DNA of 64,000 nt from assembly GCF_014467015.1 (NCBI RefSeq), contig NZ_CP058559.1, positions 1,922,001 to 1,986,000 of the forward strand, in the 5' to 3' direction. A model generated the notes under the pieces. It saw only the letters and a program-made list of their open reading frames with translations, did not search any database and was not told the origin of the DNA. The translations under genes were made by a program, and so were the position numbers. This stretch comes from Alkalicella caledoniensis (GTDB taxonomy: Bacteria; Bacillota; Proteinivoracia; Proteinivoracales; Proteinivoracaceae). This document shows positions 36,343 to 54,572 of the stretch, in pieces. Position 1 is the first letter of the stretch, and the number at the start of each line of letters is the position of its first letter.

Positions 36343-36351
36343 ACATTAAGA

Positions 36352-36379
36352 AGAACCTACGTTAACTCGTAGGTTCTTT
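36352..36379 (+). terminator. Hairpin after the LysM-G5-M23 gene (first copy)
   Basis: Perfect 10-bp arms AGAACCTACG (36352-36361) and CGTAGGTTCT (36368-36377). The T run is broken by the structured repeat that starts here; an almost identical hairpin recurs at 36656-36681. Confidence 0.7.
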
Positions 36380-36655
36380 CAGACTGATGACAAAGTCATT
36401 TTTTGGTGAATGTCGCATATTAAACGCTGTGCAAAATTCTGCGTCGAGACTTAAGGTTTCTATCTAAACTCCAGAAGGGGACCGCTCCAATTCACCGTCC
36501 ATGGTTCAGTGGAGCTCTCAGAACGTCCTGTTCTTCGCCCCTTCTTCCGTTTAGCTATTCAGCTCTTAAGTCAACCTCCTCGAATAAATTGTACTGCTTT
36601 TTAATATGCACATCTTGGGTCAATGACTTTGTCTGAGGTTTGTCTACAAGCTGGA
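36378..36655. repeat. 278-bp structured repeat element (long nested inverted repeat)
   Basis: No open reading frame. Its arms nest in order: GACAAAGTCATT (36389-36400) with AATGACTTTGTC (36622-36633); GACTTAAG (36448-36455) with CTTAAGTC (36565-36572); CTAAAC (36464-36469) with GTTTAG (36549-36554); AGAAGGGG (36473-36480) with CCCCTTCT (36538-36545); GCTCCA (36484-36489) with TGGAGC (36510-36515). The whole can fold into one long imperfect hairpin. It is flanked by two copies of a terminator hairpin. Its right 134 bp recur at 52667-52800. It could be a MITE-like element or a structured RNA. Confidence 0.75.
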
Positions 36656-36685
36656 AGAACCTACGTTAAATCGTAGGTTCTTATT
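36656..36685 (+). terminator. Hairpin (second copy) right of the structured repeat
   Basis: AGAACCTACG (36656-36665) and CGTAGGTTCT (36672-36681) followed by TTATTT. Its 26 bp differ in one loop base from the hairpin at 36352-36377. Confidence 0.8.
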
Positions 36686-47965: not shown

Positions 47966-49708
47966 TTACTTCTTTGTATCTTTTAGAATCTTTTTCATCT
48001 TGCTTTTTGTTACAATTTGGTAGTCTGTGCGAAAGTCAAAGGCTTCATGTAAAGCATCGGTAAAATCGGTTCTAGTATATAAGGGCTCATATCCTTCTCC
48101 CTTAATTTCTTTGAAATTCATATCTCTTAATTCACTAATAATTTCATGACAGGTAAATTCCTCTTTAAGTCGCTTTTCTAGCATTCTATAGATGACTAAA
48201 GATATAAAGCATGTGCTGAAATGTGCTTCAATACGGTCATCTTTTTTTAAGAATACAGGTCTTGCTTTGAATTCACTTTTCATAATCCTAAAGCATTCCT
48301 CGATTTCCCATCTCCTGTGATTTACCTTAATTATTTCAGGTACATCATCCTCAAGATTTGTACAAACTCCATAAAAACCATCAAAAGCTTCTTCTTTTTG
48401 GATGATAGCTTGATCAATGCTGTATATTTCTTTCTTTGCAATTTCACCATCAGGAGTATAGCTCGTTTTATGAATAAATCTTTTGTAATCGTTAGCATTA
48501 CATTTCTTGATTTTTGTCGGGTTTGTATCTATAGTCTTTTGAGCACGTTCTATTTGTGAGTTGCGGATTTTGCGCTGATAATCCCTGTATTTGATCGAAT
48601 AAGTTACAATCAATCTTTGTTCAAAGCCATTTTCTTTGATCCAACGTTCTTTGAAATAGACCTTTGCACTTATTTTTGCTTTATCTTCAGGAGTAGCCTT
48701 ATCTATCATTTCATCGAGTTCAGAAATATCATAGTTTTTTTTGCTGCCTGGAAGTTTCCAGCCATCAGGATCAAGAGCCCATTTCTTCAGGTGTGCTTTT
48801 AATTTTTTAATAGATTGTGTGGTAATAAAAGCTCGACCATCCTTGTCGTTAAACTTTCGATTAGCTTCTGAAGCCAACCCAGCATCTGTGCACACGATAA
48901 ATTTAGAAAGCTCAAAATCAGAAACGATTTTCTTTTCCAATGGTTTTAGAGTCAGTTGCTCATTCATATTCCCCCTGTTAATGCTAAAAGCCAGAGGAAT
49001 GCCATCCCCGTCCATGAATAGCCCCATTTGGACTATCGGGTTTGGTCTGTGTTCTTTTGACGGACCATACTGCTTTATACCATCTCCCTGCTCTATTTCA
49101 AAAAAGTAATTGGTGCAATCATAGTAAAGAACGCCGGTATTTCTTTTGGAGACCTTCAAGCTATTTTTGTACAAGGAGGACTGGATAAAGTCTGTCTCCT
49201 TAGCAAGAATTTCAAGAGCTCTGTATATTTGATGCAAATCATATTTGGGTTGTTCTATAAACTTTTTAGAAAGCTCATATGTAGCAAGTTTTGAAGAAGG
49301 GAAGATAATTCTACCGTAAATAAGCCTGGAAAGAATCGAGTCTAAATCAAAATCAAACTTATATTTTTGTGATATTTCCATACAAATCTTGTGTAGCCCA
49401 AGATCATGATATATTTTTTGCAGGAATAGGTAACCGCCGTTAAACAAGCGTGGTTCACCTTTATCAATAAGTTTTGAGGGGGAGTACTTTACAAGAACTT
49501 CCCTTTTTTCTTCCTTTTCTTTTTTGTTAAGTTCTTCTACGTAATTTTTTGCCCATTCTATGGGATCTTGGTCGATTAATTTTTTTTCTAAATCAGCAAC
49601 GGTACCGAGCTTTTCAACAACTTTAGAAGAGCGCTTTCCATTTTCGTAAATAGACTTAACCACATATAAAGATGCGGCATTTTTTGAACTAACAATTTGT
49701 AGTCTCAT
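47966..49708 (-). CDS. IS1634-family DDE transposase
   Basis: A 580-residue IS4-superfamily transposase. The DDE residues are visible: D197 in LYYDCTNYFF, D275 in FIVCTDAGLAS, and the YREK region with R466, E470 and K477 in NHRRWEIEECFRIMKSEF. The length and the region between D2 and E (with RAFITTQSIKKLKAHLKKW) match the IS1634 family. The frame is intact, so the element is probably active or recently active. The start ATG at 49708 has no strong ribosome site. Confidence 0.9.
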   Translation of the reverse strand: MRLQIVSSKNAASLYVVKSIYENGKRSSKVVEKLGTVADLEKKLIDQDPIEWAKNYVEELNKKEKEEKREVLVKYSPSKLIDKGEPRLFNGGYLFLQKIYHDLGLHKICMEISQKYKFDFDLDSILSRLIYGRIIFPSSKLATYELSKKFIEQPKYDLHQIYRALEILAKETDFIQSSLYKNSLKVSKRNTGVLYYDCTNYFFEIEQGDGIKQYGPSKEHRPNPIVQMGLFMDGDGIPLAFSINRGNMNEQLTLKPLEKKIVSDFELSKFIVCTDAGLASEANRKFNDKDGRAFITTQSIKKLKAHLKKWALDPDGWKLPGSKKNYDISELDEMIDKATPEDKAKISAKVYFKERWIKENGFEQRLIVTYSIKYRDYQRKIRNSQIERAQKTIDTNPTKIKKCNANDYKRFIHKTSYTPDGEIAKKEIYSIDQAIIQKEEAFDGFYGVCTNLEDDVPEIIKVNHRRWEIEECFRIMKSEFKARPVFLKKDDRIEAHFSTCFISLVIYRMLEKRLKEEFTCHEIISELRDMNFKEIKGEGYEPLYTRTDFTDALHEAFDFRTDYQIVTKSKMKKILKDTKK

Positions 49709-52514: not shown

Positions 52515-52666
52515 AAGCAGATTCTGTGATTCAATTATATAGTGTTATATTGCAAGTAAACATAGGACTGCCCTCGCTAGGTCTCCCTAAGGTCTATTCA
52601 AGCAAAATAGGCTTCAAGAGTAATTCTAAAATAATAAATATTTAGCCGGAGGGATATCATGATCAA
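52515..52666. other. Intergenic segment without a recognised feature
   Basis: About 150 bp of AT-rich sequence after the hydrolase. I see no gene, hairpin with T run, or att-like copy. Confidence 0.4.
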
Positions 52667-52800
52667 AACGTCCTGTTTTTCGCCCCTTCTTCCGTTTAGC
52701 TATTCAGCTCTTAAGTCTAACTCCTCGAATTAATTGTACAGCTTTTTAATATACACATCTAGGGTCAATGACTTTGTCTGAGGTTTGTCTACAAGCTGAA
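52667..52800. repeat. Right half of the structured repeat (partial second copy)
   Basis: 134 bp that align without gaps to 36522-36655, with about ten differences (about 93 percent identical by eye). It lacks the left 144 bp, so it cannot form the full nested hairpin. As in the first copy it abuts a hairpin on its right. Confidence 0.85.
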
Positions 52801-52834
52801 AGGACTAACAATAATTCAATTGTTAGTCCTTCTG
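52800..52834 (+). terminator. Hairpin right of the partial structured repeat
   Basis: Perfect 13-bp arms AAGGACTAACAAT (52800-52812) and ATTGTTAGTCCTT (52819-52831). The right arm equals the right arm of the hairpin after att-like site B. Confidence 0.75.
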
Positions 52835-53066
52835 CTATTTAGAAAGGGTTGTCCTATCACACTAGGAATATATAGTATAACCGCACCACAATGACATGGG
52901 ACATTTATAAAAACGTTTAAGGAGAGACTGTCTATGGCATAATTAAAAGTGAGAAAACGGCAGTGTAAAATCTGATAAGGTATAGCTGGAAATAAAAAAA
53001 CCATTGCTAACAATCCCTAATTACAGTACCCTATTAGTGTCGAAGCTAATGGGAGGTAATGAAAGG

Positions 53067-54572
53067 ATGTTAACAATGGACAGAATTAAGTATATCAGAA
53101 GAGAAGTAATTAATAAAGGTCGAAGTATCAATAGTGTTGCTAAAGAAAAGGGCCATGCGTGGGAAACCGTAAATAAGTATGTTGAGTGCCAGGATTTCAA
53201 CATTAAGAAAACCAAGAAGACTAGGGAATCCCGTTTAGATAAGTTTAAGCCAACAATTGATAAATGGTTAGAAGATGATCTAAATGCCCCACGAAAGCAA
53301 AGGCATACTGCTAAGAGAATCCACGAAAGGCTTCAGAAGGTTTTCAAGAACGATTATGATATGTCTGATAGAACCATTAGATCTTATGTAGCAAAGAGAA
53401 AGGCTGAGCTTCAACGAGAAATTGTTGACTGTTACTTGCCCCTAGAACACGCTCCTGGAGAGGCCCAAGTAGATTTTGGCAAAGTAACCTTTGTAGAAAA
53501 CGGTATTACCTATGAGGGGTCTGAGCTTGTCTTATCTTACCCTAACTCAAATGGTGCATTGGTGCAGCTATGTAAGGGTGAAAATTTAGAGTGCTTACTT
53601 ACAGCTCTTAAAAGCATGTTTGAGTTTACTGGCACAGTACCGAAAGAAATATGGTTTGATAACATGAGCACTGCTGTAAAGAAAATCAAAAAGAGTCACG
53701 AGAGAGATTTAACTGAGCGTTTTGAGAGATTTGCTCTTCATTATGGATTTGAACATAACTTTTGTAACCCTTCTAAGGGGAATGAGAAAGGGCATGTTGA
53801 AAACAAAGTTGGTTACTCAAGAAGAAACCTTTTCGTGCCGGTGCCAGAATTCCGGGAGCTTAAAGAATATAATAAAGACCTTCTACAAGAGTGTTTAGAA
53901 GATATGGATAGAGACCACTATGTAAAGAAAGCTAAAATATCTTATCTATTCGAAAAAGATATAGCTGCATCTAGGCCCTTACCAGTTGTCCCATTTGAAA
54001 CTTCAAAACTAGTAAAGCTAAAGGCAGATAAGTATGGGAAAATAAGGCTTGATGGTAAATATACATATTCTACTTCTCCAGCATACTGCCAGCAGCAAGT
54101 TTGGGCCAAGGTCACTGATTTGGAAGTAATAATACTGAATAACGATTACAAAGAGGTAGTAAGGCATAATCGACTATATGGTGACCAGCTAGACTCTATG
54201 CAATGGATAACATATATTGATTTAATGTCTAGAAAGCCTTTTGCTTTAAAGTATACAAGCTTCTATTCATCTATACCAGATGAGATGCGTTGTTACTTTG
54301 ATACATGTAACTTAGAAGAGCGCAAGCAGGGATTAAAAGCCCTGAATCTAATGTTACAAAATATTTCTATAGAGGAAGCTGCAAACGTTTTTAGTTCGGC
54401 CATTGAAGCTAACTGTAGAGATTCTGACAGCTTGATAGGGTTGTATCATAGGGTAGTAAATGGAGTTTTAGAAATGCCTGATATGGAGCTCCCTGATTTT
54501 GTGCCACAATTAAAGGGATACACAACAGATTTAGACGTTTATGACGGATTGATGGGTGGTGGCAGCAAATGA
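53067..54572 (+). CDS. istA: IS21 transposase IstA
   Basis: About 501 residues with an N-terminal helix-turn-helix (VINKGRSINSVAKEKGHAWE) and the retroviral-type DDE core: D in GEAQVDFGKVTF (near 135), D in PKEIWFDNMSTAVK, and E in GNEKGHVENKVGYSRR. The frame opens at 53004; the ATG at 53067 follows GGGAGG by 10 nt. Intact. Overlap ATGA with istB. Confidence 0.9.
   Translation: MLTMDRIKYIRREVINKGRSINSVAKEKGHAWETVNKYVECQDFNIKKTKKTRESRLDKFKPTIDKWLEDDLNAPRKQRHTAKRIHERLQKVFKNDYDMSDRTIRSYVAKRKAELQREIVDCYLPLEHAPGEAQVDFGKVTFVENGITYEGSELVLSYPNSNGALVQLCKGENLECLLTALKSMFEFTGTVPKEIWFDNMSTAVKKIKKSHERDLTERFERFALHYGFEHNFCNPSKGNEKGHVENKVGYSRRNLFVPVPEFRELKEYNKDLLQECLEDMDRDHYVKKAKISYLFEKDIAASRPLPVVPFETSKLVKLKADKYGKIRLDGKYTYSTSPAYCQQQVWAKVTDLEVIILNNDYKEVVRHNRLYGDQLDSMQWITYIDLMSRKPFALKYTSFYSSIPDEMRCYFDTCNLEERKQGLKALNLMLQNISIEEAANVFSSAIEANCRDSDSLIGLYHRVVNGVLEMPDMELPDFVPQLKGYTTDLDVYDGLMGGGSK

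Follow-up and report, generated by a model that had tools for sequence, protein, structure and literature searches.

The stretch of Alkalicella caledoniensis DNA analysed here (the window, 64,000 nucleotides) carries a 274-bp element that is very probably a non-autonomous mobile element (MITE) of the IS1182 family, with a complete terminator hairpin as its target-site duplication. The element inserted, it duplicated the whole hairpin, its ends match those of autonomous relatives, and these relatives behave in the same way. The first-pass annotation had proposed either that the element inserted beside a terminator and duplicated it or that it uses hairpins as targets; both statements are right and describe one event, the duplicated hairpin being the target-site duplication. 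What had been a candidate non-autonomous mobile element can now be named as an IS1182-family MITE.

The MITE runs from 36380 (CAG) to 36653 (CTG) on the forward strand, with one additional T at 36379, and is enclosed by a 29-bp direct repeat (36350-36378 and 36654-36682, both forward strand) whose copies have one mismatch and each form a hairpin with 11-bp arms. The two hairpins differing in one base that had been noticed initially are therefore real, and the full direct repeat is longer than described. Of these two terminator hairpins, the left one has lost its T-tract, and the right one is followed by the original downstream sequence. The left terminal repeat is CAGACTGATGACAAAGTC (36380-36397, forward strand) and the right terminal repeat (reverse complement CAGCTTGTAGACAAAC) occupies 36638-36653 on the reverse strand. 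No gene was seen in 36380-36653, making this a short MITE without a transposase gene. The single long nested hairpin between the twin hairpins, also pointed out earlier, was borne out by fold energies: the interior folds with a forked tip at -90.0 kcal/mol as RNA versus -63.1 ± 4.8 kcal/mol for shuffles (z = -5.6; 0/200), and at z = -5.8 versus shuffles when folded as DNA. An Rfam scan of the window at gathering score gave no matches in the MITE (no known structured RNA, no group II intron) and four tRNAs only.

The apex hairpin of the MITE, AGAACGTCCTGTTCT, contains an ACGT (36523-36526) that is empty in the window copy and holds a different IS1182-family IS in 13 sister copies. A second MITE copy in the window (52666-52798, forward strand) retains just its right half, with the break at the apex ACGT, and adjoins a terminator-like hairpin (52799-52831, forward strand). 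The window also contains two more transposase-like genes of other types (47966-49708 and 53004-54572), the second of which looks like an IS21-type istA from a reading of its translation only.

The first-pass annotation would have counted a restriction to two copies against its own proposal, but searches of the genome and its relatives with the element returned dozens. In the 3.70-Mb A. caledoniensis genome, 45 matching pieces were found, many of them element halves split by a 1.66-kb insert, and these represent more than 30 MITE copies, each at a different terminator. Nearly every copy lies between two copies of a hairpin that differs from locus to locus, and formal repeat detection found the duplicated local hairpin in 23/23 copies examined. 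A search of 60 related genomes found the MITE in one, G003 (same family but another genus), with about 40 matches that are 76% identical to the window copy and 94-99% identical to one another. The hairpin is duplicated in 28 of the 36 G003 copies analysed; the repeat was not found in the other eight, several of which are at contig ends. True flank pairs carried a duplicated hairpin in 86% of 57 cases versus 0.6% for randomly paired flanks from different copies, and the median folding energy of the duplications is -11.7 kcal/mol versus -2.3 when shuffled.

Comparison of the A. caledoniensis and G003 elements shows the outermost 15 bp of the left and right ends swapped, with the interior orientation unchanged; both element ends are therefore equivalent. 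Three A. caledoniensis loci (L252, L253 and L254) form a subfamily whose outer arms are longer and whose ends differ; L252 has GCGCC-type hairpins at either side. A fixed orientation relative to the terminator was not upheld: tandem contexts gave 10 sense and 1 antisense in A. caledoniensis and 7 versus 7 in G003. Loci with variant right ends were inspected for an autonomous gene within other copies and share none beyond other IS insertions.

Loci with and without the element, a comparison proposed at the outset, could be matched, and they yielded empty sites with a single hairpin. One such site corresponds to the G003 insertion L093: both genes recur in the sister species G001 (86-87% identity), accompanied by just one hairpin, and the flanks matched in G001 overlap by exactly 21 bp, which is the hairpin. 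The gene order of the window locus (M23 peptidase, next gene, response regulator) is preserved in G002 and G004 at 45-75% protein identity; there the M23 peptidase and the next gene are separated by one terminator hairpin then T7 or T8, with no element. These single-hairpin empty sites therefore indicate that the element inserted and duplicated the hairpin. They contradict the alternative in which recombination produced the twin hairpins, or two tandem terminators were already present around an intergenic structure, an alternative that would also have to account for flank-specific duplication at about 50 different sites. One clade IS (L240) has two different hairpins at its sides, as tandem terminators would, yet we regard this explanation as extremely improbable.

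The MITE ends match those of autonomous IS1182-family ISs (CAGACTGTAGACAAAG...CTTTTGTCTACAGTCTG) in a wide Bacillota clade. The right end TTTGTCTACAAGCTG is identical in the G048 and G341 ISs, and the left end is CAGACTGATGACAAAG versus CAGACTGTAGACAAAG. Elsewhere in the phylum, full-length relatives have ends CAGACTGTCGACAAAGT...TTTGTCTACAAGCTG and are flanked by duplicated hairpins, which were found at 7/7 autonomous ISs in G048, 6/7 in G341 and 3/3 in G209. In G341, a tandem array of hairpin-IS-hairpin-IS (L245) suggests that a hairpin, once duplicated, can become a target again. We also assembled 80 loci from named genomes (Bacillus, Cytobacillus, Enterococcus, Butyrivibrio, Lysinibacillus, Romboutsia and others), and 55 of the 66 analysed have a duplicated foldable repeat (length 27.0 ± 4.4, base pairs 10.8 ± 2.2). 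At 38 loci the first base of the repeat pairs with the last, placing the repeat symmetrically about the dyad. The repeats mostly start with AA or AG and finish with TT or CT, and since the palindrome often reaches further outwards than the duplication, the cut is not simply at the stem base. A pattern scan of the named genomes for the element core found none.

Transposases of this clade pass the NCBIfam IS1182 model (NF033551) with 465, 466 and 390 bits against a cut-off of 270, and no solved structure is related to them by sequence. G003 encodes a 234-aa IS1182-family transposase fragment (an interrupted gene, scoring 213 bits alone with NF033551) adjacent to an end CAGACTGAAGACAAAGTC, which in turn adjoins a terminator hairpin, and G001 has two fragments of a related transposase, also ending CAGACTGTAGACAAA and adjoining hairpins. 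Searching A. caledoniensis for an intact transposase of this clade found none, with no close relative at E 1e-30 and distant IS1182 members only. Because no intact clade transposase was found in A. caledoniensis and only a broken fragment in G003, the active partner was deduced from relatives; a MITE usually, though not necessarily, shares its genome with an intact partner transposase.

A 1657-bp IS1182-family IS (499 aa) is present in A. caledoniensis in 20 copies, of which 13 are at ACGT in the MITE apex, in both orientations, and seven are elsewhere; its target duplication is 4 bp, usually ACGT. That this resident IS mobilises the MITE, or that both move as a composite, might be supposed from the residence of 13/20 IS copies inside the MITE and from IS ends that begin with CAGACTG, as the MITE left end does. 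Its duplication is the wrong one, 4 bp with no duplicated hairpin, and we rejected it as the mobiliser. It sits at the apex in both orientations, and most of its copies are more than 99% identical, versus about 5-8% difference among MITE copies, which together point to independent later IS insertions. The MITE has moreover spread in G003, where the closest relative of this IS that was found is a 26%-identical fragment. We therefore consider mobilisation by the resident IS highly unlikely; it uses the MITE apex as a landing site. At other loci (L012, L013, L016, L037, L109 and L121) a different foldback (GTAGGGGG...CCCCCTAC, whole or in part) takes the place of the apex, and a further IS1182-family IS lies inside such a replaced apex at L130.

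The fold of the MITE is conserved among copies, as the first-pass annotation had required, with arms kept and compensatory changes found. In a 25-copy alignment of A. caledoniensis and G003 elements, 99.0% of cells pair, versus 45-56% when partners are slid by one column, and nine pairs have changed on both sides. The covariation score was 0.156 versus 0.086 when shuffled. Three more double changes were seen by eye in the outer-third helix, which the program had misaligned (A. caledoniensis GCATATTAAA/TTTAATATGC, G003 GGTAATTAAA/TTTAATTACC), and compensatory apex changes within A. caledoniensis (AGAAC/GTTCT, GAAAC/GTTTC) are additional to those between genomes. Because there are two main sequence groups, many of these alignment cells reflect few events. 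This pattern shows that the hairpin itself is maintained; the conserved, covarying fold may be that of a DNA hairpin or of an RNA, or may result from copying of one arm onto the other.

The undescribed structured RNA that had been offered as an alternative, in the form of a 3'UTR or small RNA under selection with mobility secondary, would draw on this same pairing, on the two-sided changes and above-shuffled covariation, on the apex changes that arose inside one genome, and on a left gene that reads towards the element in 19/21 scored A. caledoniensis copies. Against this, tandem contexts in G003 lack any orientation bias, the apex is freely swapped for other foldbacks or interrupted by ISs, and the paired changes are also obtainable by arm-to-arm template switching. 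Copy numbers, duplications and empty sites bespeak recent transposition. An RNA under selection is thus unlikely, and such a reading is not needed to explain the element.

For the MITE as a transposed element, our data suggest a mechanism in which a DDE transposase of the hairpin-targeting IS1182-family clade would act in trans, recognising the ends (CAG...GACAAA) and choosing an intrinsic-terminator palindrome by shape, not sequence. Target shape is apparently recognised, since terminator hairpins are copied to both sides by the MITE and by dozens of related, gene-carrying ISs of other bacteria. The element would be joined at two positions symmetric about the dyad, and gap repair would then copy the whole stem-loop to both sides. 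We infer, rather than observe, that the target is an extruded cruciform attacked at its two 5' feet, and we judge this step to be somewhat probable; such a cruciform would bring together in space cut sites that lie about 27 nt apart along the sequence. The host terminator would be expected to survive, with an A-tract and hairpin on the left and a hairpin and T-tract on the right. Fixed-stagger DDE transposases produce fixed-length duplications; here the duplication length tracks the hairpin, with joins placed symmetrically around its dyad.

In a model for IS1272 (PMC5678879, Fig. 13), joining at the 5' feet may duplicate the whole stem-loop (pathway b), joining at the loop duplicates the loop only (pathway c), and joining at the 3' feet leads to loss of the stem-loop (pathway a, the case of IS1272). 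The MITE data fit pathway b. We think there is a reasonable likelihood that a broad IS1182-family clade and its MITEs share structure-dependent attack on terminator cruciforms, with dyad-symmetric joins, a stem-loop target-site duplication of variable length set by the fold, and a working terminator left behind.

Two further IS1182-family ISs were noted in A. caledoniensis. A 501-aa IS with five copies (L182, L183, L186, L188 and L189) and ends GAGGGCACTGAAA lies at terminator-like sites, with duplications of about 8 bp in or near the terminator hairpin loop in at least three copies; this loop-only duplication fits pathway c of the same model (PMC5678879). A 547-aa relative with three copies (L077-L079) and ends GGGTGTCGCAAAA has no obvious duplication, and its flanks form partial inverted repeats, the pattern that hairpin replacement should leave.

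The reported worked IS1182 cases destroy the hairpin, whereas dozens of natural insertions in many genera, together with empty sites, document the opposite outcome here. A documented set of whole-hairpin duplications was not found in the open literature, the coverage of which mostly excludes subscription journals. Duplication of a whole stem-loop opens the structure-dependent model to testing and suggests an insertion strategy of low damage in which terminators are kept. It also accounts for twin terminators that enclose intergenic repeats, a class that annotation would miss. If true, the mechanism would represent a DDE transposase that takes its duplication length from how the target folds, not from a fixed stagger.

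Group IIC introns, like the MITE, insert adjoining intrinsic terminator hairpins, but they carry a ribozyme and a reverse transcriptase and do not duplicate their target. ISfinder lists variable duplication lengths for the IS1182 family. The SPRITE, RUP and BOX repeats of pneumococcus resemble the MITE as small structured intergenic repeats with elements nested in one another, though terminator hairpin duplication is undescribed in the excerpted account of them (PMC10969869). An IS1182 MITE with a long stem-loop is already known, according to the excerpted text of PMC11578231: MITEPye1 of Paracoccus yeei is likewise non-autonomous, with IS1182-family ends and a long stem-loop fold, but it has 1-3 copies per chromosome in an alphaproteobacterium, and duplication of a terminator hairpin is undescribed in that text. 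IS1182 members target palindromes and terminators (PMC4923244, PMC5678879), and the closest mechanistic comparison is with IS1272/TnSha1, which have a transposase of the same family and inverted-repeat targets, often confirmed terminators, without a sequence consensus (PMC5678879, PMC4923244). The MITE departs from IS1272-type inverted-repeat replacement in its outcome: IS1272 deletes or replaces the target hairpin with no duplication, whereas the MITE duplicates the whole hairpin.
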